The notes beneath the pieces were generated by a model. That model worked only from the letters and a program-made list of their open reading frames with translations, was not told the origin of the DNA and did no database searches. A program made the translations under genes and the position numbers. Source: Cladocopium goreaui (Eukaryota; Sar; Dinophyceae; Suessiales; Symbiodiniaceae). From it: a stretch of DNA of 64,000 bases. Where the stretch lies: the NCBI GenBank assembly GCA_947184155.2, contig CAMXCT020006334.1, forward strand, positions 465,580 to 529,579, given 5' to 3'. Numbering within the stretch: position 1 is the first letter of the stretch; every line of letters begins with the position of its first letter. This document shows positions 1,540-31,900 of this stretch, piece after piece.

Positions 1540-1894
1540 ATTCTTAATCACCATCATTACCATGATCATGATCATGATCATGATCATCATCATCATCAGC
1601 ATCATGCCATTTATTCACCACTAATAATAATCATCATCACCACCATTATCATGCCATTTATGCATCATCATCATCATCATCAGCATCATCGCCATCATCA
1701 TCATCATCACCATCATCATCATCATCCCATTTATACATCATCATCATCATCACCATCACCATCAACATCAGCATCATCATCATCATCATCATTCTTATCA
1801 TCATCACCATCATCAGAATGCCATTTATACATCATCATCATCATCACCGCCATCATCATCATCATCACCATCATCATCATCATCCCATTTATAC

Positions 1895-1926
<32 letters not shown>

Positions 1927-2570: not shown

Positions 2571-2602
<32 letters not shown>

Positions 2603-6876: not shown

Positions 6877-7126
6877 GCCTGGGTTGCCTGGGTTTTACTG
6901 GGGAAATGTTTCACATCCAGCTAAGAAATTGCGGAAATGGATTCTAATGGTATGAAGATTCGCAATTTGTTTTTTCCCCGTGCCATGGCTCGCAAGGAAG
7001 CTGCAAGCCACGAAGCGGCAGATAATTCAGCCATCTCACAGAGGATTTGTTTTTTTTGTATCTGCTATTTTTTTTCCCTCTTCAGGTGGTCCAAGATTTA
7101 AAATCCTGGGATTTCCTTGCCTTAAG

Positions 7127-7364
7127 GTGACTACCAAAACCATGGCTATGACCAGTGGAGCCACAACCATGGCCAGAGCCACAGTCATGACCACAGCCAT
7201 GGCAGCCATGGCAGCCATGGCAGCCATGGTAGCCATGGCACGGGCCGTGTGGTGCCGCCACGGGTCGGCTTCAGCAAGGGCAGCGGAGCCGTTTCCGCGA
7301 AGGGAGCTGGGAGCGGAAAGGGCAAAGGAGCCGGTGGCAACTGGGGTGGTTGCGGTGTTCCTTG
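7127..7364 (+). CDS. Copy A exon: Gly/His-rich N-terminal region
   Basis: Follows acceptor ttaag|G. The frame reads GDYQNHGYDQWSHNHGQ, then SHGSHGSHGSHG (a GGCAGCCAT microrepeat), then VVPPR and KGKGAGGNWGGCGVPW. The VVPPR and NWGGCGV-W motifs are shared with copy B, and the second with C and D, which identifies this as the counterpart of exon 1 of the other copies. The end at CTTG|gagtga is the last base shared by all four copies. In the other two frames the His-Gly repeat gives a spurious Ala/Met-rich ORF. Confidence 0.65.
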
Positions 7365-12357: not shown

Positions 12358-12392
<35 letters not shown>

Positions 12393-14727
12393 TTATCTCC
12401 CCCCCCTCTTTCTCTCTGTGGTTGTAAGACACATGTCATCTGATGCCCTTTACGAAATATTCTCTTCTTGATCAATCTTACCTTTTTTCACGCCAAATCC
12501 TGCCATAGCTCATATAAACTTCACCAACCATTCACCGACTATTTTTTACGACTACCATACTCAGAGATGCTTGAAAAACGCGTTTTTCGCTCTCGGGCCA
12601 ACCGTCGTCTAGTTTTCACGAGTTGCTATGGTGCAGGAGCACATGTCCCTGGCCGGCGTCCCATGCCTCTTCGCAGAGATCGGCAAGAGTGGCACCGGGG
12701 GAGCAGCCTTCAAGAACCTCGGAGAAAAGCTGCGGAAGTCAGTTGGTTGAGTATAGGCATTTGATGGTATTTATAATGGCAAGATCATCCACCCTCTGGT
12801 AAATTAACATAGACCCTGGCAGATAGGGGTTGGAAGACTAGTTTCCATTAAAAATTGGCTATTTTCGGGGTCTATGTTTATTTACCAGAGGGTATAATAA
12901 TAAGAGGTATAATCATGGCAATTACCCTCCAACTACTGGGATATAACCTGTTGGTTGATGATCATGGTCATTTAATCATTAGTATTTCATAGGGCTTTTA
13001 ACAACCAAGATATGGAGATAAAGTGCAACTGATAAATGATGGTTGGTTGATGATTGAGTTTGGGATGTGATGTTTTGCAGAAAACCCATGTTTTCTGCAT
13101 GTACCAGCGCCAAGTCCCAAAGTTGGAAATTCAAATCATTAAAACAAAAAGAATCTCACCCAAAGCTCAGTTTTCTATGTCATTACCAGTTCAAGTTATT
13201 AAAACTCTATTTGGGAAACAACTGACCTATAATCCGAAAAAATGGAATGTCTTCAGAATTCCGTTGCAATATATGAGGCAAAATGTAGCGACCTCACTGA
13301 CCCACCAAGTCCCATAGATGATGATTTATACCATAGATGATGGTTAGATTATATACTTCCTGGTGATTTAACATTGCTTTGAAAATGGCAAATTAAAGAT
13401 GGTTTGCCTACGTAGTTTAAACAACTATGTTCAAAGGGTACAGAATCTGTATGGTAAACACCAATAATTCATTATAATTATATATTAATTCATAGATATT
13501 ATTATATAGTTAGAGAGAGAGAGAGAGAAGAGCATCACCCCATCCCCACAATGTTATTTTTCATATCTTTCAAGGTTGTGCATGATGGTAATTTGTCCCG
13601 CATTTTCTCGCAAAACATACGCAGGGGGATGGGAAGTATATGACCAGGAGCGCGGCCCAATGGGATTTTAGAGCTTGGTAAAGAGAGATTGGCAAATTAC
13701 GGAATTTCTGATCATGGCACTTGAAAATTTAATGCTATACGTGATTCATTAAATCTGATGTAGATTGACCTAGAATAATAGATCCCGAACATGAACAGAT
13801 CCAATACTACACCTAGTTCCTGGCGGGGTTTTCTCTACAAGAGACATGGTGGATTTAGGGCAATGTAACTACCAACTTTAAGGACAATGGGGGGAACGGA
13901 CTATTTGTTCAACTGTATTGTTTGATTCAAGGTTTTTCATATAATATGTTCCCCACCAAAGCAAACTCTATTCAGTTTCATTTGGCAATGTTTCGCTTGT
14001 GCATTTTTTCACGTGGTAAACCATGGTAAACCCACCGGAACAGACCCCAGTCCTCCCAAAACTTTATAGGAACAACCCGAACGGTGTAAATAGTCAATTG
14101 ATTGGTTTGAGGAAATTTTACAGGAAGACCCCAAATTTGATGGGAAAATCTTTGGGGTTTCCGGTTAAGATTTTCCCTTAAACCAATCCATTGACTATAG
14201 CTGGTGTTTATCTTCGTGCCACATTTTGCATGTCAAGCTGCGGAAATATCGCAACCGAACCGATGTGGACGCTTTGGACAGCTGGAAATTAAGGTGTAAA
14301 GACCATCAAATGATTTTACAAATACGTGCTTGTAAACATGGAAAATTAATGTTTCAAAATATAATTTTCATTTCGGTGGTGCAAATTATATAAGATGTAA
14401 ACACATGTAAAACATCTGGAAATTGAAACAGTTTTTGGTGGTTTCAAATATGTTTTTATGTTCAAGCCCATGAGATGGTGATCCCAGCTGACACATATTT
14501 TTCAGGGATTTTCATGGGGTTGAAACATGTTGAAACCACATACACCACCATACACCACCATACACCACCATACACCACCAACATCCATCAACCATTTTTT
14601 ACATTTTTCCAGTTCTTGCATCGCAACCAGGACCAACTCCGAAGCCCTCGTAGCTTGCAGCACCCTGAATGGTTCGCAGTTTGAGGGTGTGACGCTGCAC
14701 TGTGACATGTGGAGTCGGAAAACATGA
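7127..14727 (+). CDS. RRM-like Gly/His-rich protein, copy A (whole gene span)
   Basis: Exons: 7,127-7,364; 7,787-7,942; 12,637-12,713; 14,631-14,727, probably preceded by one near 6,784. The N-terminal part is a low-complexity Gly/His/Ser/Lys tract. The C-terminal part reads as an RRM fold: strand 1 RVWVGGLP, helix 1 VSKELNMKLKEHMSLAG, strand 2 VPCLFAEIG, strand 3 GTGGAAFKTN, helix 2 SEALVACSTLNGSQFEG, strand 4 VTLHCDMWSRK, then stop. Small Gly-rich RRM proteins bind RNA; that role is inferred from fold pattern only, and the RNP1-like segment is atypical because it lacks two of the usual aromatics. Introns 2 and 3 join in frame only as GA-AG introns. Intron 2 is 4.7 kb and full of satellite arrays. 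Confidence 0.7.
7787..7942 (+). CDS. Copy A exon 2: strand 1 and helix 1 of RRM
   Basis: This exon encodes 52 codons, starting VLQPMFNAMM, with the Gly-rich KGSGKAGGG, the strand-1 motif RVWVGGLPPNN and helix 1 SKELNMKLK. It has four codons more than C and D, in the Gly-rich stretch. The exon ends at AAG; the intron begins gagcac, and the next exon begins GAGCACATG, so the natural splice is AAG|ga...cag|GAG. Confidence 0.75.
7955..8014. repeat. 10-bp tandem repeat (CATCTTGGCA)x6
   Basis: Six perfect copies of a 10-base unit lie directly after the donor of copy A exon 2. It creates overlapping spurious ORFs on both strands. Confidence 0.9.
8015..9190. other. Intron 2 of copy A, unique part
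   Basis: This is AT-rich sequence with several poly-T runs and no supported exon. Short ORFs on both strands at 8,330-8,640 have no family features. Confidence 0.45.
9195..9792. repeat. 30-bp minisatellite with CTGCAGATCTAGAT core
   Basis: About 20 copies of a 30-base unit, roughly CTTCACACCTTCACACCTGCAGATCTAGAT, vary at only a few sites (cct/ccc, acc/atc). The unit length is a multiple of three, so a 258-codon frame (period HTFTPADLDL) stays open; it is a by-product and not a gene. It lies within intron 2 of copy A. Confidence 0.9.
9840..10395. repeat. Roughly 70-75-bp tandem repeat (CGCACGAAATGGACGTTGGACG)
   Basis: Eight units start near 9,862, 9,931, 10,005, 10,077, 10,147, 10,217, 10,291 and 10,366. 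Each has ACGAAATGGACGTTGGACGT, then CAAAAACTG(A/C)GGAAAAATTGCGACTTTTATCCGTCGCGCGCAACC. Two variant units replace the CCGTCGCGCG part with GAGTTGTCAATTG. ORFs on both strands are repeat artefacts. Confidence 0.9.
10388..10730. repeat. 16-bp minisatellite (TCTGTGTGTAAAAGCG), left array
   Basis: About 20 units of a 16-base repeat with point variants (tttgtgtgtcaacgcg and others). The same repeat forms a second array at 11,628-12,150, with about 900 bases of different sequence between. Confidence 0.9.
10740..11627. repeat. Three diverged long repeats between the two 16-bp arrays
   Basis: Three copies of a 100-150-base unit can be aligned by eye, near 10,850-10,970, 11,065-11,145 and 11,250-11,370. 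Shared landmarks are CAGTTTGCA-GTCT-TGCGACA, TGTCAAAC-CA-GA and GTTCTCAG-TT-GAAG. The units are strongly diverged. No reading frame is maintained across them, so I do not call a gene. Confidence 0.5.
11628..12150. repeat. 16-bp minisatellite (TCTGTGTGTAAAAGCG), right array
   Basis: About 32 units of the same repeat as at 10,388-10,730. Minus-strand ORFs of about 200 codons through it are repeat artefacts (HTQTLLHTDAFT period). Confidence 0.9.
12312..12418. repeat. (CT)n microsatellite
   Basis: An interrupted pyrimidine CT run of about 100 bases, inside intron 2 of copy A, 220 bases before exon 3. Confidence 0.9.
12637..12713 (+). CDS. Copy A exon 3: strands 2 and 3 of RRM
   Basis: After gtgcag|, the exon reads EHMSLAGVPCLFAEIG, then KSGTGGAAF plus two bases of the Lys codon. 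The natural junction with exon 4 is TTCAA|gaacct...accag|GACC, giving FKTNSEA. This GA donor lies 13 bases downstream of the corresponding donor in copies C and D. Confidence 0.8.
12791..12894. mobile_element. Foldback element, TIR family 1 (GACCC subtype)
   Basis: The ends TACCCTCTGGTAAATTAACATAGACCC-type and GGGTCTATGTTTATTTACCAGAGGGTA form inverted repeats over a 104-base element. A copy of the same length lies in the opposite orientation at 61,684-61,787. It is in intron 3 of copy A. The first base of the left end is mutated (C for T). Confidence 0.75.
12895..14089. other. Intron 3 of copy A, remaining sequence
   Basis: AT-rich sequence without supported exons. It holds a (GA)n run near 13,510-13,530 and a possible decayed family-1 element near 13,356-13,442 (TGGTGATTTAACATTGCTTTGAAAATGG-like). 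Confidence 0.4.
14090..14200. mobile_element. Inverted-repeat element, family 6 (ATTGGTTTGAGG ends)
   Basis: The left end ATAGTCAATTGATTGGTTTGAGG pairs with the right end CCCTTAAACCAATCCATTGACTATAG. The same terminal motif starts the GA-AG intron at 34,259. No coding capacity. Confidence 0.65.
14535..14582. repeat. 10-bp tandem repeat (CATACACCAC)
   Basis: Four to five copies of a 10-base unit just upstream of the pyrimidine tract of copy A exon 4. Confidence 0.85.
14631..14727 (+). CDS. Copy A exon 4: helix 2, strand 4 and stop
   Basis: After accag|, the exon reads TNSEALVACSTLNGSQFEG, then VTLHCDMWSRKT and TGA. Length 97 = 1 + 32 codons, which matches phase 2 of exon 3. Confidence 0.8.
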
Positions 14728-15498
14728 GAAGGGACCACTCGATGAAAGCTCCGAAAAGGAGGTGCCGGTCCTGGTCTAGTATAGGACCTTGTTGATCAGA
14801 TTCTTGTGTCACGATGTGCAACTTTTAACAACTATAATATACTGAAAATCTGCACCAGTTTCCAAACCTGTGATGACCCCAACTAGTTCATTTTTGATTT
14901 ATTGGAGCAAAACACATTCAGCACTCAGTGGCGCGTTCCATAGCGTTTCCAGCTTGCAACCTGCAAGCTTTGAGGGGTGAGTCGTGCGCCAATTCGATGC
15001 ATCGCTGGTGGTTTTCCATGGCCAGCTGGTCATTCCACAGCCTTCGGGGTGGCCACAGCAGAAGTGATGAATCTCGGACAAAAAACAATCTTTGAGTGAG
15101 ATAATATTGCCCGAAAACTGCTTGCTGGTTTCATATATTGTCATCAATAGGTTTTCCTGCCAGTCCCAGAGATCTTCTATGGAGCATTTACAGGAACTCT
15201 GGAACCCACCATATTTTCTGGTAAAGAAACATAGTATCCTTGGTTTAGATGTTTTCTTAAATCAACCCATTGAGAGTTGAAACACGTTGATTGTTTTGCG
15301 TGTGGCTCGGACATTTGCTCAAACAGGCGGCTGCAAAGCAACAGAAGTGCATGTGCATTGCATCAAACATTTTCGCCCAAACTGACTTAAAACATGACAC
15401 CATTGTGCAATTTGCATGAGCTTAAATTTGCCACATTTTCCTTGCGGTTCCCCGACTTTCTCGTTCTCTCGTGCCCGAAAAATTCGTCCTTCGCAGCC

Positions 15499-15674
15499 AT
15501 GAATCAGGGCTATGGTAGCAAGGGAGTCGTTGTGCCCCCACGCATGGGCCAAGGAAAGGGACAGGGAGCTGTTGTCGCCGCCGTTCCCACGCCAACAGCC
15601 GGAGTTCAAAGTGGAAAGGGCAAAGGAGGTGGTGGTTCCTGGGGTAGCAACTGGGGTGGCTGCGGCGTTCCTTG
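15499..15674 (+). CDS. Copy B exon 1: start and Gly/Lys-rich region
   Basis: ATG in context gcagccATGA. It encodes 58 codons plus two bases, ending GGCGTTCCTTG|gttcca. VVPPR and GSNWGGCGVPW align with copy A. The length in phase (2 bases over) is the same as in A, C and D. Confidence 0.65.
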
Positions 15675-17711
15675 GTTCCAAACGATCGCACTGACATGCA
15701 CTGACCGGTGAAAACCCCCTGTTGGGATTCGGGTTTGCTGGGGTTTTGACATTTGGGGCTTGAAGCGTTGGGCTACGGCCTCTGGCAATGCAACAGATGG
15801 AAAATCCCAGCCAGATGATCCAGAAAAGATGGAAGAATCAGTGAACTTTAAATGGCTGATATGAACCAGCTAGCCATGTTCAATTTGCTGGGTAAACCCA
15901 GCAAACCCCAAGTTTGCTAGTTAAATCGCCACTTTCCCTGAGTTGGTTTTCGCCACTACTTAAGTGGAGTTGGTTTCTCCCTGCAGGTTTGGCCATCGAA
16001 CATCATCTAACATCATCTAACATCATCCAATCTTCGATATCACCCATAAACGCTAATTAGTGATACTATAATTTTGAGTCTATCACCATTTTTCTTCCAG
16101 CCATTTCCGATCAGCAACAAAAAAGGGGGCAAACTTCCAATCCCATCCATTTCTACACCCCTTTTAACAAAGGGAGGCTTTGCTGTTTTCAGCCAGGTTT
16201 GGCAGCCCATGTTCAACGCCATGATGATGTCCATGATGGGCAAAGGCTCTGGGAAGAACGGTCTCCGTAGCTTCGCTCCAGACCTCAAGGTCTGGGTGGG
16301 AGGCATGCCGCCCAACAACGTCACTGAGTCGAACGAGCGCTGGCCGATGGTGTTTTTAGGGTGAAGTTAGATTCCCTGAAAAGATCGACAAGTAGATTAC
16401 CTATTTGAGTAGGATTCTGAAGTTTGAAGTTTCTATAAGTTTCTATTTCTTGCAGGGTTGCTATCGTGCTTTTGGAAGTTTTAGATGTTGGATTGAACGT
16501 TGGGTCACCAATGTTTTCTCGGACCTTTAGTTCTAACATCTTGGGATATCCACCAGGGAACCTTTTTTGGGCCCGGTTTTCTCTGAGGTGAGTAAGGAGA
16601 TCAACATGAAGTTGAAGGAGATCGAAGTACTGGAATGATCCATTGATCAAGCACTGTCCAAAAATACTACCCTGATTTGGCAATGGGAAATCCTTGTTTA
16701 TAGCTGGGAAATTCATGGAACTAATTCAGGGAATTGTCCATTGTTTTTCTTGGCCACCAGAAGGTAACAGCAACATCCCAGAATTGTGGTTTCCAACCCG
16801 AAATTGTGGTTCTTATTACTTCTTACTTTATTCTAGATAGGATCTTGATGGATCTTTGGTAGAAAGGTCATTTTTCGAAACCCCAAAATTCTGGATATCC
16901 CTTGGCAACCGGCAGGAGCACATGTCCTCGGCCGGCGTCAATTGCCTTTACGCAGAGGTTGGCAAAACCGGCACCGGCGGGGCAGCCTTTAAGACTTTCG
17001 GCATACTTTCGGCGTTGAGAAATGGTGGGATTTGACCATCATTTTACCATGAAAATTGGGAGAACATATATGGGATGAATTGGATTATAATCCGCTAATC
17101 AGGATGCAATGGGATCTATGAAAAGATGGGGATCTTACCTTATGGTAATGTAAGATGTATGATATATAGCTATGTAAAATAAACAAGCTAAATCTCTCTT
17201 ATATACCTTGATTGATTAAGGATCGGGGTCTTGCCCCAAAAAGCGATGTCATGTTATTACAATTTGGCACCCCGCCACTGGTCAACAGCCCCGGGGTTGA
17301 CATTTATCGCGGGTTGCATTACACCCCAATCGAAACCCTCATCCGATGAGATGTTGGATCTAGTCATGACTTGAGCTCCCTTGAAAGTGGCAATAGAGAT
17401 TTTTTTGGAGTGTATTTCAATTTCAGTAAAGTCATTTCATTTTTTTCACAAAACAATCTCATGATTCATGATGGTATAATTTGCTATAATCCACATTAAT
17501 CCACATTAATCCACTATATTTCCAAACGGATCCGGCTATGACATGAAGCCCGGCCCATCTCGTTTTCTTCCCCTCAAACGCGGTCGTAGCGTTCTTAGCG
17601 CTCAGGACCAACTCGGATGCGCAGGTCGCCTGCGCTGCGTTGAATGGGTCCCTCTTTCAGGGGATGCCGATTCAATGTGACCTATGGAGTGCCCAAGGCA
17701 AGAAGGTGTGA
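15499..17711 (+). CDS. RRM-like Gly/Lys-rich protein, copy B (whole gene span)
   Basis: Exons: 15,499-15,674; 16,197-16,319; 16,588-16,617; 16,916-16,992; 17,606-17,711. This compact copy starts MNQGYGSKGVVVPPRMGQGK, with a Gly/Lys/Val-rich N-terminus ending NWGGCGVPW, then an RRM-like domain with KVWVGGMPPNN, VSKEINMKLKE, HMSSAGVNCLYAEVG, KTGTGGAAFK, TNSDAQVACAALNGSLFQG and MPIQCDLWSAQGKKV. It is the only copy whose exon 2 is split by a further intron (16,320-16,587). Domain role as for copy A: RNA binding inferred from the fold pattern only. Confidence 0.72.
16197..16319 (+). CDS. Copy B exon 2a: strand 1 of RRM
   Basis: VWQPMFNAMMMSMMGKGSGK, then NGLRSFAPDL and KVWVGGMPPNN. It ends AACAAC|gtcact, where the other copies continue without interruption into V/T-SKE. 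Confidence 0.75.
16588..16617 (+). CDS. Copy B exon 2b: helix 1, 10 codons
   Basis: After ctctgag|, the exon reads VSKEINMKLK and ends AAG|gagatc. The 268-base intron before it has GT-AG ends and separates codons that are adjacent in A, C and D. The bases at the two ends (gtcactgag at the start; ctgag|GTGAG at the end) are similar, as if a short target had been duplicated. Confidence 0.75.
16916..16992 (+). CDS. Copy B exon 3: strands 2 and 3 of RRM
   Basis: After ggcag|, EHMSSAGVNCLYAEVG, then KTGTGGAAF plus two bases; donor TTTAA|gacttt. Same 77-base length and GA donor position as in copy A. Confidence 0.8.
17606..17711 (+). CDS. Copy B exon 4: helix 2, strand 4 and stop
   Basis: After ctcag|, TNSDAQVACAALNGSLFQG, then MPIQCDLWSAQGKKV and TGA. 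It is three codons longer than copy A at the C-terminus and more diverged than the C/D pair. Confidence 0.8.
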
Positions 17712-18250
17712 CCGGCAGACCATCCGGAACCGTGACCGGAACCGCTAAAAGAAAGCAACACGGTTTTATGAAAGCAGATCTATGAAGGCAATATGACAGG
17801 AAAGGTCCCCAAATGGGCGGCTCATGCCTCTGAGAGAAATCAGAGCAAGGTGTCAACAGACACGTGTATACCGGTGCGCTTTTTCCAATTCGAAAGCGCA
17901 TTTTGAAACAGTTTTGTATCTTATGAGGGCACACGAAATGGCACCTGTTTGCAGCGCTCTTGCGAGCTGGGCAAGCTCGAACTGCACCAATTCGATGGAT
18001 ACGCAATGGCTGGTTGGCCCTGAAAAAAGGTTGAGCGAACCTGGGGGTCGGCCTCCAAAACTACCAGAGATGTTTGACTGTTCAACTGATTGAACCACAG
18101 ATACTTTTTTTTTCTATGTTTGTCTCCCAAAAATAGGAATTGAATGGACTTGAATGGAAATTAGCTGAGCTGCCCGGCCAAGTTGGTATGGAACGTTCAG
18201 AAGATGATCTGGTATCAATTGACCGAGATGCTCTTTCTTGATTTGCTGGA
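17712..18250. other. Spacer between copies B and C
   Basis: No supported exon. Overlapping ORFs of 60-134 codons occur on both strands at 17,602-18,130, but no single frame is clearly favoured. Confidence 0.4.
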
Positions 18251-18438
18251 CTGGCTTGTCGGCTCCCAGGCACCCGCAGGAAGCCTCAGCAGTTGCGCGA
18301 AGAAGAGATGAATCACAGAAATGTCACAGAAACAAATTCAACAGATATCATTGTCACATCCAGCTCTTCTGTTTTTTCTTGTTTGGCGCTTGAGGATCTC
18401 TGAGATCCTTTGTTTTTCGGCCCATTTTTGTACCAACC
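18251..18438 (+). promoter_or_regulatory. Duplicated 5' flank of copies C and D
   Basis: This 188-base stretch before the ATG of copy C is repeated before copy D (23,512-23,699) with no gaps. Together with exon 1 the duplicated block is 466 bases and I count six mismatches. It ends ttcggcccatttttgtacc-aaccATGG. It probably contains the 5' leader and possibly the promoter or trans-splice acceptor, but no specific signal can be named. Confidence 0.5.
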
Positions 18439-18716
18439 ATGGGCTGGGGCGGCTGTGGTAAGGATTGGGGCGCCGCAGGCGGTCAGGACTGGGGCTGCGG
18501 TGGACAGGACTGGGGCGCTGGGGCAGCGGCTGGTGGCTTCGGCGCAGCCTGCGGTGGGTGTGGCAAGGGCTATGGTGGTGGCTATGGCGGTGATGGTGGC
18601 TGTGGCAAGGGCATGGGCAAGGCCATGGGTGGCATGGGAATGGGCATGGGCAAGGGCATGGGCATGGGCAAAGGAGCAGGATGCGGCAGCAACTGGGGCG
18701 GCTGTGGCGTTGCTTG
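18439..18716 (+). CDS. Copy C exon 1: Gly-rich N-terminus
   Basis: ATG in context aaccATGG. It encodes 92 codons plus two bases. Repeats of GGQDWG and GMG are low-complexity. It ends GTTGCTTG|gtaaca; reading on would meet TAA after Trp. Joining it to the GTTTGG start of exon 2 at the simple ctgag acceptor shifts the frame; using an upstream acceptor (cccccag|GGTTACC, exon from 19,141) would keep it, adding VTPNFAE. Confidence 0.68.
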
Positions 18717-20940
18717 GTAACATTGGAAGGGCCTGGGTCTCCCATTCCCATGCAAGCTGAGGGATCGATCCTGGCTGGATGGATTGCAGCCATGCATTTT
18801 TTTCTAGGACCTAGATGGCATGGATTCTACATTATGATATATATATATATATTATATATATATGATTAATTATATATATATACCATTAAAAATTTAGCAA
18901 GTTAACATGGATATGGAAAATATACCATCTATTGGGAAGCTATGGTTTTTCATGGGCTTTCTGTATTTGAATTTCATGTATGAAACAGTAATTAAGTATT
19001 AAGTTATATACACAAACCACAACTCATATATATATATAGAAAACAAGAACACCACTAAAATAGTGGTTTCTACATGACCATGCATGACCTCTCCATATCA
19101 TTTTGGCTTTGCTGTTAGTATAGTGTTTTAACACCCCCCAGGGTTACCCCGAATTTCGCTGAGGTTTGGCAGCCCATGTTCAATCCCATGATGATGATGA
19201 AGGGCTTCGGCAAGACGGGCCTGCGCAACTTCCAGAACGATCGCAAGGTCTTCGTGGGAGGCATGCCGCCAAACAACACCAGCAAAGAGATCAACATGAA
19301 ATTGAAGGAGATCCCAAAGGGGGCTGGTTGGCTAAGAGATGTTGAGAGTGATTGGTATATGTGAGATTATGTGAGTATATAAAGTGAAATTCTATGGAAT
19401 CAGGGGTTGCACCTGGTGGTGGGGGGTTGAGTTCGCACTTACCCTTTGGTTGGTTCCAAGCTGGCAAAATGGAACATACCCACTTGAAAGACATAAATTG
19501 TTTGCAAGTGATGATTTTGGTGTGATTTTCCATCTGTGATTTTTTGGGCTGACCACCACCTGGGTGATCAACGATCAACAATTGTTTTTTGGGTGAACAG
19601 ATCTTTGGGATTCTTTGCGTCTGTGTTTTCGGGCTGCTTCATGGCAGATATGCGTCAGTTTTTGAGAGCCAATAGGATTGGCATTTACTTACGTATTTAA
19701 TTACGACATCTTAAGACTATTCGGTTTGGTGGTTTCAAACATTCGCAGTGTCAGAAACACAATGGACAGGACAATTGGATTAGCGTTTCTCATGGGAGGA
19801 TTTAATGTTTCATGCTGATGACCGTGGTAGCAGTGCACCTGATTCGCCGTGGCTCAGGAGCACATGTCCACCGCAGGCGTCACATGCCTCTACGCAGAGA
19901 TTGGCAGGAGTGGCACAGGAGGACGCCCGGGCTATCCGATCTCCACGGCACTAGTCATATACCCCACCTGGTGATCTCGATCTAGTTGGTGGTTTGGAAC
20001 ATGAATTTTATGACTTTCCATATCATATATTGGGAATCTCATCATCCCAACTGACGAACTCATATTTTTCAGAGGGGTTGAAACCACCAACCAGCTATAG
20101 TCTCCTTTTGTGGTACAAAATTGAGAAAGACATGGAAGGGTATGTTCAAACAAAATACCCCATATATGATATGTGCAATTGGAGCATCCCGAAGTGGCAT
20201 CATCGAATGCAGAAATTCCATAGACAGCACTGTCTGATGTTACATGTTTTGATTGTGCTTTTCGTTCCCCCAGTTTTTCAACACTGTTCGGCCAATGGTA
20301 AGCCGGCTGGCAAAGGGCAGTTGAATTGTACCCTCTGGTTATTGAACAGTTTGCTGTACTTGTATGGTATAAATGATTTATAGATGATAAACATGATGAC
20401 TCACCTGTGAACAACGGGTGATTTTCCACATGCTATGTTAAATATACAGAGGGTAACTCAGATCTTATGCCCTTTTTTGAGGGGAATGTATTAGCCCATG
20501 TGAAGGCCCATGCCAAGATCTAAGGTGTGAACTCCCCACATTGACTTGCGTTTTGCTTTCAAGATTTGCAATGAGTTTTCGGGGTAAACCCCAATTTTGT
20601 TGGGTGAATCCATTTGCAGATCATTTTGATTTCGTCAAAGTCAAATGCTCACTTTTCTCCTTGTGAACCCATCATTTTTGGAAACTGTAATCCCATTCCA
20701 CTACTAAGGACCACGACCCAGACACCATGGTTTTCCTATATGTTTTCCCCAGCAACATTTCCACATTCTGAACCTTGAAAACACCAGACCCTCGTTGAAG
20801 AGGACGGGGGACTCCCACGGCCCGCCCCAGGAGCTGCGTACAAGTCCAACAGTGAAGCCATGACCGCCTGCGCCGCCTTGAACGGCTCCCAGTTCGAGGG
20901 CGTCACATTGCAGGTGGAGATGTGGGGACGGAAGGCATGA
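18439..20940 (+). CDS. RRM-like Gly-rich protein, copy C (whole gene span)
   Basis: Exons: 18,439-18,716; 19,164-19,307; 19,858-19,921; 20,831-20,940. The N-terminus is 92 codons of Gly with Trp, Cys, Lys and Met (MGWGGCGKDWGAAGGQDWG, later GMGMGMGKGMGMGKG), ending NWGGCGVAW. The RRM-like domain has KVFVGGMPPNN (strand 1), TSKEINMKLKEHMSTAG (helix 1), VTCLYAEIG (strand 2), SGTGGAAYKSN (strand 3), SEAMTACAALNGSQFEG (helix 2) and VTLQVEMWGRKA then stop. Exons 2-4 total 318 bases in frame when the last two introns are read as GA-AG. Exons nearly identical to copy D; introns unalignable. RNA binding is inferred from fold pattern. Confidence 0.75.
18830..18892. repeat. (AT)n microsatellite
   Basis: Interrupted TA dinucleotide run in intron 1 of copy C. 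Confidence 0.85.
19164..19307 (+). CDS. Copy C exon 2: strand 1 and helix 1 of RRM
   Basis: 48 codons: VWQPMFNPMMMMKGFGKTG, LRNFQNDRKVFVGGMPPNN, TSKEINMKLK. Donor AAG|gagatc (GA). Differs from copy D at only two positions that I see. The coding start may extend upstream to 19,141. Confidence 0.8.
19858..19921 (+). CDS. Copy C exon 3: strand 2 of RRM
   Basis: After gctcag|, EHMSTAGVTCLYAEIGRSG, then TG plus one base; donor GGAG|gacgcc (GA). 64 bases, 13 shorter than in copies A and B because the following intron sits further upstream. Confidence 0.82.
19983..20099. mobile_element. Inverted-repeat element, family 9 (GGTTGGTGGTTTCAA ends)
   Basis: The left end TAGTTGGTGGTTTGGAAC pairs with the right end GTTGAAACCACCAACCAGCTATA. 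A shorter copy is at 29,195-29,260, and a decayed one around 25,835-25,917. It lies 61 bases into intron 3 of copy C. Confidence 0.6.
20329..20454. mobile_element. Foldback element, TIR family 1
   Basis: TACCCTCTGGTTATTGAACAG to GCTATGTTAAATATACAGAGGGTA, 126 bases, decayed in the middle; inside intron 3 of copy C. Confidence 0.65.
20831..20940 (+). CDS. Copy C exon 4: strand 3, helix 2, strand 4 and stop
   Basis: After cccag|, two bases complete Gly, then AAYKSNSEAMTACAALNGSQ, FEGVTLQVEMWGRKA and TGA. 110 bases = 2 + 36 codons, matching phase 1 of exon 3. Confidence 0.82.
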
Positions 20941-22293
20941 GCGGCTTGAGCCTGGCGCCGTCACGTGGCGGAAACCCAAGATGGCAGCAACTGAAAATCC
21001 TCCACAAATGGTTAAGATAAATAGATCTAATAAATATAATAAATGGTTATTTTGTGTTATTTTAATGGGTTTTTAATGGGACATGATTCCTATTAAATGA
21101 TGATTTCTCCATTGACGTGTTTGATTACTGGAAGGTAGTGGCTGAACCAATTGGGATGCGTTGTAAGTTTCCCAGAAAGTCAGACACAGCTGGAAAATCA
21201 TTGAGCTGGAGCTGGATATGTTCCATTAGCATGTTTGATTACCAGAGGGCATATAGAAGATATCTATATGATTATATATAATCTATATGTTCTAACCTAG
21301 TCAGTTGTTTTTTTGACAGGGTATCTGAGATTGGGAAGGGATGAATTGGAGGGTTTTTGGTGATAAACCGTGATACACATGGTTTTTTGGTGGTACTGCA
21401 AACGTCCTAAGAATCATTTGAAGGTTTTTGGTGAGACAACTTGAAACCCCGGAAGGATTGCGTTGTGGGGACTGAAACTCATTAATGGAGAACATCTTGA
21501 TCTCAGGTGGAATTTATGATAGTCGAAGAGAGGTACTTAATGACCTGGCCAACATCATAGCGTGAAAATCGGAAAAATATCAGTCAACCCACCAATCTGG
21601 GGTGGCAGACATGAAGAAGTGGAACAACTGGAGACATGGCGCGTAGTCCGTGATTTGATGGGTTGTGGATGGATGAGAAACAAGTGAAACGGTGATTTCT
21701 TTTGTTCAGGTTAGGATTCAGCATGCCGTGCAGCTCAACAGCTTCTCGTGCTTTTCCAGATGATCCTCTTGATTTTTGTGTAAAACCCGGGGCCACGTTA
21801 CTCTGGTAATTCGCTGTAATCGTGGGGTGGTGGCCCCCAACTCAGGCTTCCAAGTCGATCACTATGGGATAAACCTCAAGACTCATGGCTTTGTTTGCAC
21901 CCCGCCAGCAGCTTCTGAGGTAAAAGGCTCTCATGTTGGCTGATAGCAAAAAGCCATGAGAAAAGGTGAGAGACCCAATCCAATCAATCCAGGTAACTCA
22001 GCTGCGGTTTGGGGAAGCGGGACCTGGTACACTAGAGACCTGGAATCCCAAGATGGTGTGAGCTGTTGATCATTGGAAACCTCTGGAGATCATGGGAACT
22101 CATCATTTGATTTCTGGGAAGTCGTACCATTGAGCAATTGAGGTCTCGGCATGATTGGGCCGGGAGTTTGGGTTGACCCCGAGGTGTAACCTGGCTGGTG
22201 GTTTGATATATGCCGTATTGATCCTTATTGTCATCCATCCTATTTGGTATGATACCTTTGCATCCTCATTTATTTTTCATCTTTTTCAGGTAG
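20941..22293. other. Spacer after copy C
   Basis: No supported exon. A single family-1-like right end (ATTACCAGAGGGCATA) is near 21,239. Sequence at about 21,951-22,015 (GCCATGAG...CCCAATCCAATCAATCCAGGTAACTCAGCTG) recurs at 27,510-27,570, a short dispersed repeat of unknown nature. Confidence 0.4.
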
Positions 22294-22359
22294 AGCAAGC
22301 CCACCAAGATGGCCGTTACCATCGTTGATCGACGTTTCGCAAAGCCTGATCTAGTCGTA
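22294..22359 (+). CDS. Possible exon (MAVTIVDRRFAKPD)
   Basis: After ggtag|, a frame of 22 codons reads SKPTKMAVTIVDRRFAKPDL and ends GTCGTA|gatttt, a GA donor like those of the RRM genes. The ATG at 22,309 has a good context (ccaagATGG), so it may also be a start. I do not recognise it. It could belong with the 22,567 exon. Confidence 0.35.
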
Positions 22360-22566
22360 GATTTTATTTTCAACATCCAACATTTATGGGGTGGTATGAT
22401 GATATATTATGATTGAAAGATGGGATGAGTTGATTTTCTGTCCGTACCTATATAATCTTTAATTTATGATTTTGCCCTGGCCCATTTAAATCATTAATTA
22501 TAGGTTGGTATCTACCCCCACGGCTGGTGAACCGCCGAACCGCATTTGAAATTGCCGCGCTTCGAG

Positions 22567-22732
22567 GTTCTATGAACGGAAGCACCAGCCCGGAGTGGCT
22601 GCTTCCGGCAATGCCATGACGCCTGACGCTTTGAACTCACAACGCGCAGCGCTTGTGCTGCGGTGGAAAAAAGAAGGGATGCAGCACTGGTGGCCCAAAC
22701 ACCACCGGGATGGAGATAGTATCAGCCTTTAA
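22567..22732 (+). CDS. Possible terminal exon (FYERKHQPGV...), duplicated at 28.1 kb
   Basis: After cgag|, the frame reads FYERKHQPGVAASGNAMTPD, ALNSQRAALVLRWKKEGMQH and WWPKHHRDGDSISL, then TAA. It is locally GC-rich with a protein-like composition, unlike its AT-rich surroundings. About 120 bases recur at 28,093-28,215, where small indels break this frame. I do not recognise the family. The phase does not fit simply to the exon at 22,294. Confidence 0.4.
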
Positions 22733-23511
22733 TATATCCGTTCATAATTTGTATCATTTGTGTCAACCCTGGTCCTTAGGCTAGTCAATTACAATGTGAC
22801 GGCCCGCAGTTGTGAGTTGGTTCACGGGCCCCATTAACGATGGGTATACCTTGGTATATCTACCATGGACAGTTGTAACAACAACTTAGCTAACTATGGG
22901 GCAACACACTGTAATAGTGTAGTGGTTTATTATACTGTATACCTCAAATGGAGGAATGAACATATGAATGAACTATAAAGACAAAACACATGTTTGTGTT
23001 TTGAGGAGTATCGAATGACAGGTGGCTGACCGTTTGAGAATGCTGTGATGATCACATCGCAGACATTCTGGGACAAAAAATTGGAAAATGGATGGAAATG
23101 GATTGAACTATAAGCTGCATGCCCAAACGGAAACCATAATAGAATATATTGTTGATGTTGGAGGGTATCATGAGTGCCCCAAAAGGTATAACCATGATTT
23201 GGGGGGAAACCACTTTTTTGGGAATGCCACGGTGTCACGCACTTTCAGGACGGGAACGTTCTCTGCAATTTGAATCATGAGTTCGTCCATGTCGTTCATC
23301 CAAACAGCCGCTCCGCTTTGGCAAACAAAACAAGAACTCTCGACTCTAGCAGATTTAACCTGTCAATGTAGAGTCCATTTCCCCAAATGTATTAAGCATA
23401 TTAAGCTTCCCGTATTTTTCCGAGTAAAAGTAACATGGTGTTTATGCCATGATTGAGTGCCTAAGGGCACGAGGAAAGTCAGCTATCAACACGGGATTTT
23501 TGGCTGCTTGA
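22733..23511. other. Spacer before copy D
   Basis: AT-rich sequence; short ORFs on both strands (22,930-23,273) without support. Nothing else seen. Confidence 0.4.
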
Positions 23512-23699
23512 CTGGCTTGTCGGCTCCCAGGCACCCACAGGAAGCCTCAGCAGTTGCGCGAATAAGAGATGAATCACAGAAATGTCACAGAAACAAATTC
23601 AACAGATATCATTGTCACATCCAGCTCTTCTGTTTTTTCTTGTTTGGCGCTTGAGGATCTCTGAGATCCTTTGTTTTTCGGCCCATTTTTGTACCAACC
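23512..23699 (+). promoter_or_regulatory. Duplicated 5' flank of copy D
   Basis: Gap-free counterpart of 18,251-18,438 at an offset of 5,261 bases, with two visible differences (cacccAcagg and gcgcgaaTaag). Left of 23,512 the similarity to copy C stops abruptly. Confidence 0.5.
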
Positions 23700-23977
23700 A
23701 TGGGCTGGGGCGGCTGTGGTAAGGATTGGGGCGCCGCAGGCGGTCAGGACTGGGGCTGCGGTGGACAGGACTGGGGCGCTGGGGCAGCGGCTGGTGGCTT
23801 CGGCGCAGCCTGCGGAGGGTGTGGCAAGGGCTATGGTGGTGGCTATAGCGGTGATGGTGGCTGTGGCAAGGGCATGGGAAAGGCCATGGGTGGCATGGGA
23901 ATGGGCATGGGCAAGGGCATGGGTATGGGCAAAGGAGCAGGATGCGGCAGCAACTGGGGCGGCTGTGGCGTTGCTTG
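23700..23977 (+). CDS. Copy D exon 1: Gly-rich N-terminus
   Basis: ATG in context aaccATGG; MGWGGCGKDWGAAGGQDWG to NWGGCGVAW. It ends GCTTG|gagttg, so the donor is GA where copy C has GT at the same base. The frame meets TGA three codons further on, so it must splice or end here. Confidence 0.68.
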
Positions 23978-26651
23978 GAGTTGACGATGAGTTTTGATGT
24001 CCATGGTCTAAGTCCTGAGAGAAGGAAGATATTCGCCATATTCTTCATTAAGAGTTGGCATGATAATGGCAAACTCCCTGTTTGAAAACCACCTTTATTG
24101 TTGTAAAGACTCAAGTTTCCTCACATCAACCATTTTGGGACTAGCATGAAACATCCCAAGTAGAGGTATGCCTTGTCACAAAACACAAATTCAGGATGGT
24201 TCGTTATTTTGGGTACAGCATCGGGCCCTTCCTTCAGCCAGTCCAATGAAGATCCGCCCTGAGTGAGGTTTGGCAACCCAAATTTAGATGAAAAATCATG
24301 GTATACCTTGGTTTGATTGGTTCATAGCAATTGTATGTGTGAGTTTTTCGCAACTTTTACCCCATTGGTTCACCAGAAAATTTATGAAAACCATGGGATT
24401 CAATCAGCCCTTCCAATGTTGTGACCCTTCCAATAGTAGATAGTGATAGATGGTTCATATAATAAGCCCTTCTTAGTGATTGTTGGTTGTTAAAGAAGCA
24501 TAGTAAAATGTAGGAAACCCTTCTTGTTGGCTCTTACACTTTTACCTCATTGCTTCACAACATGCAACCCAAACCTGGCTTTCCTGAGGTTTGGCAGCCC
24601 ATGTTCAATCCCATGATGATGATGAAGGGCTTCGGCAAGACGGGCCTGCGCAACTTCCAGAACGATCGCAAGGTCTTCGTCGGAGGCATGCCGCCAAACA
24701 ACACCAGCAAGGAGATCAACATGAAATTGAAGGAGATCAGGGAAGTGGTTGGGAAGCGGGTAGCCGGGTAGCCTCTGGTCAGAAATGGCTGGAAAATCCC
24801 AAATGGGCTTTCAATGGGAAAATCATCACAATTGGATTCAATTGCCATGTTTGATTATCAGATCTGGCAGCAAATGGATGTAATTTCCATAGATCTGGCA
24901 GCAAAGGACATCAAAGGACCCAGAATCTCCATGGCATTTTTCACCATGGATCATCCCAGCGGTCCCCCGGTGGCCATGGTCGATATGTCACTGGAGATGC
25001 CAACCCATTTTCACAGCACCCACCCATTTTGAAGTGCCGGCGGCTGGATGGAAACATCAAATAAACAGACGCCACAAAAATAGAGTTCCAAAAGCCGATG
25101 AATGATGAAATACCCTGCGGCAATCAAACGTGGCTAGCTGCGAACCCCCCTATATATATATATACATATATATATATATACATCTAATGGGAGGATCAGT
25201 TATAAATGAAGAACATTAATAGCCTAATAGCTACTTTGTTTTTTGGAAATCAATAGCTGACTTTTGGGTTTTGGCAAACACGTCTTGGGGGTTCAATGTT
25301 GTTGAGATGATTCATGGTACAGAGGCGCCCTCAATCCACATGTTTTTTGCACCAAACTGGGACCCCCAAAAAGCAACGGTGGTGACTTTGGAACTTCGGT
25401 GTCTGGAACTTTGAGAAAGACGATGGGGTATGAGAAAGATTTGGATACCTAAAAATGGGATGACTGGGCTCAACGATGGACATCTGACCCAGACTTAAGA
25501 GTACGCATACTACAGACTGAAAACACTAAAAACATCCCAATCTTGAGACGTTTGACCCCCGTGACACAGGAGCACATGTCCACCGCCGGCGTCACATGCC
25601 TCTACGCAGAGATTGGCAGGAGTGGCACCGGAGGACGCCCGGGCTAGAGAAATGTTGAAGCATGTGTTATGTCTGGGAGATACGAGAGATACCCTCTGGT
25701 AAACGTTTACATAACTATACATAACTATGGAAAATCACCATTTTTAATGGGTAAATCAACTATAAATCACAATTTTTCAATAGCTATGTTAAGTTACCAG
25801 AGGGTAGATTAGATAATTCTAGATTTTTTTTTGAAACCACCAGCCGGGGAAAACGGTGGGTTCATGGGATAGGCAAATCATCTCAATTGGGGTTCATTAA
25901 TTGTTGCTGGTTGGTGGTTGCAAAGATGTGTTCATCTTTACCTGGAACATGAACCTCGATTGGACATTTTAGGCACAACCCAATGGCCGTTTCAATGAAA
26001 CATAATGAAAGATGATTACAAAAACGTGAGATTGCAGGGTGCTTCATTTGCATTCATTTGCATCATATAACGCTTTATGATGTTTTATGCCCATTTTGAT
26101 TGGTCAAACCCTATCATCACCTCAATTAACAGCCTAAGAATTAGCCATTTTTAGTGGAACGTGGTCTTCCAACCCCCAACTGTACAACTCTTTGGAAGGA
26201 CTGATCAATGGATCTTCCAGCTGGTGCCTTGCGGATTCCATCCCAAAAAAACCATCGGAATTACCCAATAATTGAAAGTTCACTCCCCCCTTTTCTGCTA
26301 GACCCCATCATTTTTCCTGGTGAAATCCTAATTTCTGCCGGGTAATCCGGACATTTTCTGGAGGATAAACTCAATTCCTGTTGCTTTGAGTGATTAAACG
26401 CACATTTCCCCTGGTTAAATCATGTCAAATCAAGTGGAATTCCAATTTCTGCTGGTTCAATCAGTTTTCTGCCTGGTTAAACCATGTTAAACCTACCCTT
26501 AGGTCATACATCGCCATCCAAGGTTTCACAGCCATGGCCAGGAGCTGCCTACAAGTCCAACAGTGAAGCCATGACCGCCTGCGCCGCCTTGAACGGCTCC
26601 CAGTTCGAGGGCGTCACGTTGCAGGTGGAGATGTGGGGCCGAAAGGCATGA
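23700..26651 (+). CDS. RRM-like Gly-rich protein, copy D (whole gene span)
   Basis: Exons: 23,700-23,977; 24,589-24,732; 25,570-25,633; 26,542-26,651. Same architecture and same exon lengths (278, 144, 64, 110) as copy C. The protein differs from C in at least one visible residue (Gly to Ser in GGYSGDGG, and the strand-4 tail WGRKA is the same). All three donors are GA (gagttg, gagatc, gacgcc). The introns (611, 837 and 908 bases) share only about 6-13 bases at each end with those of copy C. Confidence 0.75.
24589..24732 (+). CDS. Copy D exon 2: strand 1 and helix 1 of RRM
   Basis: Same 48 codons as copy C exon 2. Donor AAG|gagatc. The frame is open upstream to about 24,520, so the acceptor could be earlier than ctgag|. 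An echo of the exon start (gaggtttggcaaccca) lies at 24,264-24,279. Confidence 0.8.
25570..25633 (+). CDS. Copy D exon 3: strand 2 of RRM
   Basis: After acacag|, EHMSTAGVTCLYAEIGRSG, TG plus one base; donor GGAG|gacgcc. Two mismatches to copy C (gcAggc/gcCggc and acAgga/acCgga), both silent. Confidence 0.82.
25690..25806. mobile_element. Foldback element, TIR family 1
   Basis: TACCCTCTGGTAAACGTTTAC to TAGCTATGTTAAGTTACCAGAGGGTA, 117 bases. It contains the inner palindromic parts CTATGGAAAATCACCATTTTTAATGGG and TCAATAGCTATG. Lies 56 bases into intron 3 of copy D. Confidence 0.8.
26542..26651 (+). CDS. Copy D exon 4: strand 3, helix 2, strand 4 and stop
   Basis: After gccag|, two bases complete Gly, then AAYKSNSEAMTACAALNGSQ and FEGVTLQVEMWGRKA, TGA. 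Nearly identical to copy C exon 4. The 3' flank is not similar beyond the stop. Confidence 0.82.
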
Positions 26652-27338
26652 AGCGAACGCGACGGAGGTCACTTGGTGAACTGAGCGTTGTGGCTGCTAA
26701 ACTCCTGGTTGATCATCCAAATACGTTGGGGATCATCATCCTCCATGAGCTGGGAATACCTGTGAACACTCGATTCTTCAAGTTTGGACTCAAGATGATT
26801 CAGCCAACCCGATGGTGCTCGCACCCGATAATCAGGGTCCAATAAGGGTTAATTTTGACCAACAGCCACTGATACTAATAATGGCTGGCTACATGGGGGT
26901 CCCCTATGCAAGCTCTTCATCCAAGCGGTGACCCGTTTAGTTCGATGATTTACATGTTCTCAACACGGTATGTTTTTCAGTTTTTCATTGATTTTCTATA
27001 GACAAATGTTGAAGTACTTGAGGATCTCGAGTCGAGGGTAGGTGTGAACCAGCTCAAGGAACTACTTTGAGAATCATCCAAGGAACAATAACTGGTTAGT
27101 AACATTCTGTCTGTGAAAACCCACGAAATCCTGGACAAAAAAATCACCACGGTTACTATCACCAGTTACTAAGTGGGAGGATCCTTCAAGAAGTGAATTT
27201 CGCGGTCAGCTTTTTTCACCAATCATTCCATCGGGGTGGCCCAGACCAAGCAGTTTTTTCCTCACAAGCCTCCACCATGTTCAAATGGGGTCGTCGCAAC
27301 TTGACCAGTGGAGCTACTATACATGAGATCAGTTATGG

Positions 27339-27453: not shown

Positions 27454-27869
27454 TGCCGGTTCTGCCTGGTTTGTTTGATGGTCATCCCTGCGAATCTTCC
27501 CAGGCACAAAGCCATGAGCAGAGTTGAGAAACCCAATCCATTCAATCCAGGTAACTCAGCTGCCGTTTCTGGAGGCTTGACCAGATCCAGGGCAAGCGAA
27601 ACCGTGGAAGGTATTGGTTAAAATAAATGAACATAATGGAACATGAAGTGTGTTATTGATGTTATTTGTTGGTGTTTTTGTTTTTTTTGCAATGGTGAAT
27701 GGGTCGTGGCCATATTGGCATGTCTTGTTGGGGATGACCCGCAATTCATCATGGGACACCGAACCTCGGACATCCTCGGACTATCATTCACCTGGCAATG
27801 GAAATTGTCCGACTGAGCAATGGTGGCGAGACACCCCTCTTGGTTGATCATGCTACCCTTTGTATATGT

Positions 27870-28092: not shown

Positions 28093-28215
28093 TGCCGCCG
28101 CATCTTGAGGTTCTATGAACGGAAGCATCAGCCCGGAGTGGCTGGTAGCCAGGCAACGCCACAACGCCTGACACTTTGAACTCACAACGCGCAGCAAGTT
28201 GCGGTTGAAAAAATG
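28093..28215 (+). pseudogene. Degraded copy of the 22.57 kb exon
   Basis: It aligns to 22,552-22,671 with landmarks GAGGTTCTATGAACGGAAGC, AGCCCGGAGTGGCTG, CGCCTGACNCTTTGAACTC and ACAACGCGCAGC. A net gain of two bases after GTGGCTG breaks the frame seen in the other copy. It is followed directly by a family-1 element at 28,234. Confidence 0.45.
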
Positions 28216-28921: not shown

Positions 28922-31900
28922 GATTATGTCTTGGTAAATTGAGTTAATTGAGTATAGTATAGCATATAGCATAGTCTAGTCTAGTATAGCATAGTATAGT
29001 GTGGTATATATATAATAATGATATTTTGCCAGCTGATGCATTTACCTAGACCCTCCAAATGTATCCATAAAATGTGTGCTTACCCCATGATTTTAGTACC
29101 TTTATGTCAATGTGTAAGCGGAGGGTCTAGGTATTAAACGAACCGGCTAGTTTTCGATTCAGCAGGGGTGTCAAAGATTGGCCGTGATATTTTTTGGTTG
29201 GTGGTTTCAATTTGTTGTTTCTCCTCTGCTCCATGAGAGTTGAAACCACCAACCAGCTATGAGCAACCAACGAACATGGGTATTTGACTGTTACTGTACT
29301 TGTACGATGGTTTCAAGTCATTAGTTCTTGGCAAATTTAGCGAGTCCGAAGTTTGACCAACGAGTGTGGCTACCGGATGCTCATTTGGTAATTTTCTCCA
29401 GATCCAAAAGGACAGAAGTAAGCAATGTGGTAACCCAAGAATGGGTCGGATTGAAACCCCCTTAGCAGTTTGAAATGCCTGTGGTCCTGTGGTTTGGTTC
29501 GACATTTGGCACCAGCTGCCGCAAGGACAAGTCTGCGTTGGAAAAGGACAGGCCCATGACATTGTCGCATTCGAGGGGTCGCGAGTAAGAAGCGTATAGC
29601 AACCCCATTTTGTGGAAACCTGGAAAATTTGGAGGACGCATCAACCATCATCATCCACAACTGACCACGGGAATAAATGGTTGATAGCCATTGGCTATTG
29701 GCGTGACCCAAATACCCCCTGCATCCCCTGCTCCGGGACTTGCCAACCGTACGTACTAAGAGGGACTAAGTACATCTGCGTGCTATGGTGCTGCGAAGTG
29801 TCCGAGATGCCTCATTGAGATCCAACCAAAGCCGAAGAAACATCAAATAATGAGCCATAACGAGGAACATTTAGCTGCTGAAGGCACTCCGAATAGTGGG
29901 CATGTCCGTGTGGGCCACTCCGCATCAGCTCCTTCTCAACCTCCGAGAGAGAACAGAAGAGGCGTTAGGGGAGGCAAACACAAGAGAACAGGCGAGCTCA
30001 AAAAAGGCAGTGGCAGAAGGACTTCGACGTGTTTGCCAAGCCCGACACTGCCATGTTGATCAACCGCCATGGGTGATCTTTGGATGACCTTCTAGCAGAT
30101 TACACCAGCTGGGTTTGCCTGAAAATTGTGGTATACCCCTAAAACAGCAATGTTAAATGATTTTAATGGAGCAGATTATGATAAACCATCAAATTTGAAG
30201 GCCTCTCCCCCCAAAAATCAGACAAACACATGTATGCTGTATGAATATATATGACATGAGGCATGAAAATCATTGAAAGTTCCTCAATTCACAACCGGTT
30301 TTGGAAAGAGCTCGACAATAAGATTTTGCTGCTACAACCTGCCCAGAATGGTCTTGAATGATCATGAGTGAAGGAAGAGTTTATGAGAAATAATATGAAT
30401 ATTTGTCGTACAAACACGGAGATGCAGTAAGATAAAACTGGAAAGTGTCGACACCAGCACACTCACTTTGGTACAGAGAGCTCATGTTGGGCATTCCTTT
30501 CAAGGAGCACTTTGGGGGCATTCAATATCCTTCACCATCAAAGTCTGCACTTAATTAATTACTGTACATGCTGATGGGTTTGCAACTTCAAACATCATAA
30601 CGCTACAGCTACGGAAATTCTACCAAAAGCCTACTTAAAGGTTCATCAGTCTATTTGGATGGCAGAAGCTTCAACTGATCCTTGGATGACAGTGCGGTCC
30701 ACCTTCGCAGCTTCGCACTGCAAAAAGTCCAAACTTCTCCCAAGTCCAAAAATCCAAAACAACCATCAATTTTTCCATTTTTCCATTTTTCTCCATGTCT
30801 TACATTTTTTCTCCGTCAGACCATGTCTGTTTTTTCCACTTGAAACATTCCCCCAAAAATCGTGGCAGTGGTGGAGGAGAAGGACCAGTTGGAGGCTGAG
30901 CTGGCCAAGTTGAACGCCCAAATTGCGGCGCGGCAGGTGGAAGTGGAGGCCGCCCCGAGCCGCGCCGCAAATGCAAAAAAAGGGGGGACTGGTAAAATAT
31001 GGAGAACTATGTGGGATATTAGGGTTAATAATGGGTGAATAATGGGTGAATAATCATCTAAGAGACTGTTCCATCTTTTTGTGGGCCACGATTTGATGTG
31101 TTGGCTGATCCATAGCCATTTTGTCCAATAGCCGTGGTTTGTGTATCCATTTCCAGGGATGGGTCACACTGTTTTTATGGCGTCCTTTTCACAAAGGATT
31201 TGGTCATTGGATCAGGGACTCTCCCGAAATGGGTTGAAGGAAAAACCATGAAGCACTGGATGGATTAGATCGCTAGACACATCTAGACACTTGGAGAGCT
31301 TGGAGTTGTCCTTTCTGCTTGTTGATGCATGTTAATAACCCACATCAGAGCTACCAAACGGTGAAACTCCGGGGATGAAAACAAACCATCCAGATTCTCA
31401 TCCAGCTATCCAGTCAATCATACTCAATCCAATCACTCTGAAGGGATCTATATCTACAATGAACCCATCAATATCCATTAATATCCATTAGTATCCATGA
31501 ATATCCATTAATATCCATCAATATCCATGAATATCCATGAATATCCATGAATATCCATGAATAGCCATTAATATCCATAACATTCCATGAATTCCATTAA
31601 TATCTATCTATATCCATTAATACCCATTAATATCCATTAATGTGCATTATTATCCAATACTATCCATTAATATCCATGAATAACCATTAATATCCATGAA
31701 TATCCATTAATATCCATCAATATCCACCAATATCCATTTATATCCATTGATATCCATTAATATCCATTAATATCCACCAATATCCATTAATACCCATGAA
31801 TATCCATTAATATCCATGAATATCCATGAATATCCATGAATATCCATCAATATTCATTAATACCCATTAATATCAATTAATACCTATTAATATCCATGAA

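Follow-up and report, generated by a model that had tools for sequence, protein, structure and literature searches.

Background

Exon-restricted gene conversion between paralogues is already known from Tigriopus californicus, in which, according to the portion of the published account available to us, the exons of GOT1Sd and GOT1Sr account for most of the exchange and a neighboring intron defies alignment (PMC3728101). Among dinoflagellates, the tandem actin clusters of Amphidinium carterae, as far as the accessible part of their description goes, combine a multicopy gene with concerted evolution and odd splice borders (PMC2488372), and dinoflagellate introners provide, in the part of the report at hand, a precedent for intron gain and mobile intron sequence (PMC11453091). 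Here we describe a locus of Cladocopium goreaui that resembles each of these systems in part. The 64,000-nucleotide stretch analyzed (the window; contig C5837, positions 465580–529579, GenBank CAMXCT020006334.1, in a genome of 1.17 Gb and 6202 contigs) covers most of a cluster in which a glycine-rich RRM-like gene occurs five times in tandem, in the order E-A-B-C-D. The last two copies, C and D, have nearly identical 5' leaders and exons and unrelated introns, a pattern that, if our reading of it is correct, adds a dinoflagellate case to the known instances of exon-restricted conversion.

Results

Copies C and D both lie on the forward strand. The 5' leader of C (18249–18438) differs from that of D (23510–23699) at 2 of 190 positions; it is followed by exon 1, rich in glycine, methionine and lysine (18439–18708 in C, 23700–23969 in D; 4 differences in 270), exon 2, which encodes part of the RRM (19164–19307 and 24589–24732; 2 in 144), exon 3 (19858–19930 and 25570–25642; 2 in 73) and exon 4 through the stop codon (20831–20940 and 26542–26651; 4 in 110), with identities of 96–99% throughout. 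A first-pass annotation, made from the letters of the window, had matched 18251–18716 to 23512–23977 without gaps and with six mismatches, and the alignment indeed contains exactly six in 466 positions. Identity actually begins at 18249/23510, the adjacent upstream base being different, and the block does not stop, as had been claimed, at the last base of exon 1: with exon 1 ending at 18708/23969 in the GT-AG model, it extends nine common bases (GTTGCTTGG) into intron 1. The description of exons 2–4 as equally close holds for exon 2, exons 3 and 4 being somewhat less so. Of the 12 coding differences, 11 are silent, so that the proteins differ at one of 198 residues; neither reading frame is interrupted, and dN is 0.002 with dS of 0.091 overall (0.051 in exon 1, 0.127 in exons 2–4).

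The three introns are a different matter. Introns 1 (GT-AG; 18709–19163 in C, 23970–24588 in D), 2 (GA-AG; 19308–19857 and 24733–25569) and 3 (GC-AG; 19931–20830 and 25643–26541) have end runs in common of 9+5, 6+3 and 4+4 bases, respectively. A BLAST comparison of C with D (E up to 0.01) recovered the four exons and, besides them, AT-rich simple repeats and a repetition within exon 1. For introns 1 and 2 and the flanking 1 kb on each side, alignment scores were not clearly above those of dinucleotide shuffles, 5–55 of 60 of which reached the observed score, and upstream of the block (14701–18260 against 20941–23520) nothing in common was detected below E 0.25. The earlier observation of near-identical exons beside unrelated introns is confirmed, with an exception in part of intron 3, in which the score exceeds that of shuffles (0 and 1 of 60 reach it) over 20421–20463 against 25772–25814. 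This segment of C aligns with the end of a miniature inverted-repeat transposable element (MITE) of 117 bp in D intron 3 (25690–25806, strand not assigned; ends TACCCTCTGGTAA and TTACCAGAGGGTA), whose family has dozens of copies in the genome (best 40 of 2218 candidates scored); once the MITE part is removed, the score of 30 lies below the 99% null value of 32. At the start of intron 1, the donor run (18709–18717 and 23970–23978), together with an acceptor GTTTGG, makes an alternative in-frame splice possible, yielding VAWQP in place of VWQP.

Similarity between C and D ends at the stop codon and then returns, beyond the 1 kb tested, in two islands. Island 1 (21946–22024 and 27504–27582) has 12 substitutions in 79 positions and island 2 (22553–22672 and 28093–28213) has 11 in 116 aligned positions with 6 gaps, or 23/195 when pooled. 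The islands lie 1006 and 1613 bases past the stop in C and 853 and 1442 in D, and they are collinear with the genes, their offsets of 5558 and 5540 comparing with 5261–5712 for the exons. In a genome-wide search, 21900–22700 matched nothing else except the counterparts on contig C5274, which is described below. Since collinear islands unique to C and D are present, the pair traces to a tandem duplication that spanned no less than 4.4 kb, not to a processed copy, and the stop codon was not the edge of the duplicated unit. With the islands masked, one further downstream stretch scores 48, where shuffles reach at most 29, and may be an AT-rich match. The islands may be exons of the 3' untranslated region, remains of a decayed gene or spacers that have been conserved. 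One frame of island 2 in C (22553–22672) reads FYERKHQPGVAASGNAMTPDALNSQ, with a faint likeness to exons 3–4 of the gene, and is possibly a decayed copy. When island 2 was compared with family exons on this assumption, the island of C against the spliced exons of D beat all 200 shuffles, 17 of 200 shuffles reached the score of the island of C against the exons of C itself, and the island of D gave nothing clear.

Two levels of divergence can be distinguished within the pair. Silent sites of exons 2–4 (8/68) have diverged as much as the islands (23/195; p=1), whereas the leader combined with the silent sites of exon 1 (5/251) is lower than either (p=0.0015 and p=4e-5, respectively), and the leader alone (2/190) also differs from exon 2–4 silent sites (p=0.0005). 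The leader and exon 1 thus look younger than exons 2–4 and the islands, as a mosaic would, although the leader may be constrained. From leader through exon 4, divergence (at silent sites in the exons) is 2/190, 3/60.7, 2/25.7, 2/18.3 and 4/24.3 (1.0, 4.9, 7.8, 10.9 and 16.5%), an upward 5'-to-3' trend (p=5e-5) in which the numbers are small and block length runs parallel.

Introns of 455, 550 and 900 bases were evolved in simulation using an indel:substitution ratio of about 0.5, obtained from two haplotype-like contigs, with kb-sized insertions left out. At d of 0.05–0.13, all three introns were recognized in 100 of 100 runs; at 0.3, a mean of 2.5 of the three; and no intron was recognized in 31% of runs at 0.4 and 90% at 0.5. 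The introns of C and D accordingly behave as if at least 0.4–0.5 apart, versus 0.13 for the silent sites of exons 2–4 and 0.01 for the leader. In the sole control, two tandem copies of a related gene on contig C285 that differ by 12 substitutions in 1191 positions, the intron is still alignable.

The wider cluster places the introns of C and D in an ancestral framework. Copy E starts at about window position -9360, and its last exon was not located; copy A spans about 7126–14727, and copy B ends at 17711. The encoded protein consists of a glycine-rich N-terminal exon followed by a diverged RRM, for which the signature is a Pfam RRM_7 score of 12.2 bits, below the 27-bit cut-off, and a chain match to SRSF1 with E=4.4e-6. 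Intron sites 1 and 2 are ancestral, being common to all five copies, in each of which the intron-1 donor run GTT(G/C)CTTG is present, the nine-base run of C and D recurring with one or no change. Site 3 falls between AA and G of an AAG codon in E, A and B; in C and D only, it has moved upstream and adjoins an RPG insertion. Extra introns are seen, by reading of the alignments, within exon 2 of B and exon 4 of E.

Contig C5274 holds the same cluster, with 99.46% identity over 31.6 kb from window position 12613 on and 86–99% identity in the non-satellite pieces upstream of that point. We treat it as the second haplotype, a duplicated contig being a possible alternative. Across 18000–27000, C and D have no differences from their C5274 counterparts. 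Between the haplotypes, 12,288 aligned columns contain 295 substitutions and as many as 134 short indels, a high indel share, and the noncoding difference around the cluster is 134/7172 (1.9%). Along the contigs (12613–44234 being the collinear part), haplotype identity is mostly 86–96% upstream and climbs to 99.5% past 12613. About 3.5 kb of copy A intron 2 (9137–12612), with tandem repeats inside, is absent from C5274. Copy E has a large minisatellite in intron 3 (1547–4968; GC skew of -0.9 over 2001–4000), the two haplotype versions of which are only 82% alike, and a 118-bp MITE with perfect 34-bp inverted ends in intron 1 (C5837, window -6025 to -5908); the C5274 haplotype lacks this element, which indicates a recent insertion into the intron. 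Elsewhere in the window, a short-step tandem array with offsets in multiples of about 10 bases and about 83–88% self-similarity occupies 31465–32480, and a repeat at 51068–51452 aligns with itself in direct and in reverse-complement orientation.

A conversion-like tract links copies E and B. It comprises the end of intron 1 and the first 65 nt of exon 2 of B (16157–16261, forward strand) and is clearest in C5274, where E and B have 42 aligned bases at the end of intron 1 (score 68), then 65 exon bases without a mismatch, then 16 mismatches in 55. A breakpoint as strong arose in 3 of 10,000 permutations, and the end of intron 1 of C5274 E scores 63 against that of B in the window, the maximum of 300 shuffles being 27. 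For 12 other exon-2 pairs, breakpoint p values range from 0.014 to 0.47, several at column 33; weak breakpoints are therefore general, and E-B alone stands out. A spliced message cannot have been the template for this tract, part of which is intron DNA. Haplotype-specific conversion from B to E was considered and dropped, as the difference in E includes the MITE insertion and the exon part is present in both haplotypes.

Discussion

The reading that we favor, with roughly even confidence, combines an old tandem duplication, fast intron decay and purifying selection with later conversion, at the DNA level, of at least the leader and exon 1. C and D would have arisen when a unit of 4.4 kb or more, with a glycine-rich RRM-like gene in it, was duplicated in tandem; their introns and spacers would then have decayed past recognition, aided by very frequent indels, with the protein meanwhile held by purifying selection. 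Subsequent short-tract ectopic gene conversion between the copies would have reached at least across the leader and exon 1, which at about 460 bp would have been the longest stretch still able to pair, and intron heterology would have ended the tract. Exons 2–4 may record an earlier conversion or may simply reflect the age of the duplication. We infer conversion, rather than constraint, as the cause of the young leader and exon 1, and the direction of conversion is likewise a matter of interpretation.

Several observations weigh against this reading, and many of them would be accommodated by an account without conversion, in which C and D are old tandem duplicates slowed by purifying selection on the protein, codon choice and 5' leader as their introns and spacers decay. 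We regard such an account as possible, if on the doubtful side. It is consistent with the dN of 0.002 and with functional borders delimiting the similarity; no tract border is found inside any exon of C or D. A constrained leader would mimic a young leader and exon 1: taken by itself, exon 1 is not distinguishable from exons 2–4 (p=0.21), and the trend without the leader has only p=0.09 (0.055 in a one-sided permutation). The silent divergence of exons 2–4 matches that of the downstream islands, a result that lowers the probability of conversion for these exons, and the persistence of islands within an otherwise lost spacer implies uneven decay. In E and A, about 131 silent sites (E1, E2, E4 and A2) show no change between haplotypes, the noncoding rate of 134/7172 predicting about 2.5, and both coding substitutions in the eight exon pieces of these genes alter amino acids; silent sites may therefore evolve more slowly than introns, and if introns evolve 3–4 times faster, the silent sites of exons 2–4 are explicable without conversion. 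Finally, of the 8 silent differences in exons 2–4, all 6 that can be polarized by E fall on the C branch, which a simple clock does not predict. Against constraint as the sole cause, introns would have to outpace silent sites at least 3–4-fold and the leader about 40-fold. The family's silent sites do change (dS of 0.95 for C-E and 0.66 for D-E), and the leader of E differs between haplotypes at 3/191 positions, similar to nearby noncoding sequence, so that leaders here are not evidently frozen; a count of 7/191 upstream of copy A was not used, the start codon there being uncertain. No leader resembling that of C and D was matched in E, A or B. The possibility that the C/D leader is a structured RNA was set aside, its folding being unremarkable (z 0.44), which also speaks against constraint on it.

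Of the three explanations put forward in the first-pass annotation, exon-restricted conversion through cDNA, re-insertion of a processed copy with new introns at the old sites, and wholesale replacement of introns by mobile elements, conversion is the best supported, at least for the leader and exon 1, and its cDNA route is not. Pairing of a spliced mRNA copy of one gene with the other, the introns looping out, would transfer exons alone in a single event, and retroposition is termed rampant in dinoflagellates in the available part of one report (PMC11453091). Divergence is, however, lowest at the 5' end, whereas cDNA primed from the 3' end should favor the latter; similarity begins 21 bases before the first AG able to serve as a trans-splice acceptor; all introns are retained; and the E-B tract includes intron DNA. 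We therefore consider the cDNA route very improbable. With the 21-nt dinoflagellate spliced-leader core as the query, the genome yielded 172 exact matches and the reversed control none, which, like the GT, GA and GC donors of the introns, marks it as that of a dinoflagellate; the relic suggested for the block edges was not among the best matches listed in a scan of the whole window (best 15/21, at 31110), nor did reading of the 3' edges reveal the suggested poly-A scar.

The same marks, spliced-leader relic, poly-A and intron loss, would be those of a processed retrocopy, and in C and D they are lacking, the introns being present. Re-insertion of one copy as a processed gene, followed by regain of introns at the same three sites, could appeal to the family's record of intron gain and loss (the extra introns of B and E, the moved intron 3 of C and D). 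Nevertheless, sites 1 and 2 occur in E, A, B, C and D with the same donor run, the derived site 3 is common to C and D, and the islands past the stop follow in the same order in both, showing descent from a longer tandem unit; we consider this origin next to negligible in probability. Recent duplication followed by wholesale replacement of introns and spacers by mobile elements or introners, which we judge quite improbable, draws on the MITE of D intron 3, on that of E intron 1, which only one haplotype carries, and on introners being active in dinoflagellates, as stated in the accessible text of the same report (PMC11453091). Yet, besides exon 2, the only other genome matches of C introns 1–2 are to AT-rich repeat (best 40 of 154 candidates scored), and those of D introns 1–2 (best 40 of 50) are to AT-rich repeats near 25107–25190, a fragment at 24767–24870 that recurs in six other places and a weak stretch at 24124–24212. 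The candidates scored did not place introns 1–2 of either copy in an introner family. Replacement is thus unsupported for these introns. Of the third introns, that of D contains a single MITE, and that of C did not enter the genome-wide searches on its own.

The preferred reading, in which DNA itself was the template for converting at least the leader and exon 1, sets such a route apart from the reverse transcription frequently proposed for dinoflagellate genomes, and the pair allows a test, by simple counts, of the means by which multicopy genes are kept similar in dinoflagellates. If conversion is confined to exons, dinoflagellate duplicates that are dated from their transcripts would seem younger than they are. 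A broader and, in our estimate, rather unlikely generalization is that conversion in dinoflagellate arrays proceeds with 5'-to-3' polarity from a start close to the trans-splice acceptor until rapidly decaying introns interrupt it; if this were true, gene families would stay alike in their transcripts while noncoding sequence turns over. The same pattern was not reported for a dinoflagellate in the titles and abstract openings searched, most subscription journals lying outside this coverage.

Compared with introners, introns 1–2 of C and D differ in occupying old sites and in having no dispersed family among the matches found. Roy et al. 2023 reportedly deals with introners in dinoflagellates. 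In the actin clusters of A. carterae, introns and spacers are, in the accessible part of the description, conserved along with the coding sequence (PMC2488372), which those of C and D are not. The closest likeness is to GOT1 of T. californicus, in which, on the part of the account available, conversion also falls mostly within exons and the intron is too divergent for alignment; that case involves mainly one large unalignable intron and a copy that is decaying in several populations (PMC3728101). In the dinoflagellate pair, by contrast, neither copy has lost its reading frame, and none of the three introns is related between C and D except through a MITE family common to both.

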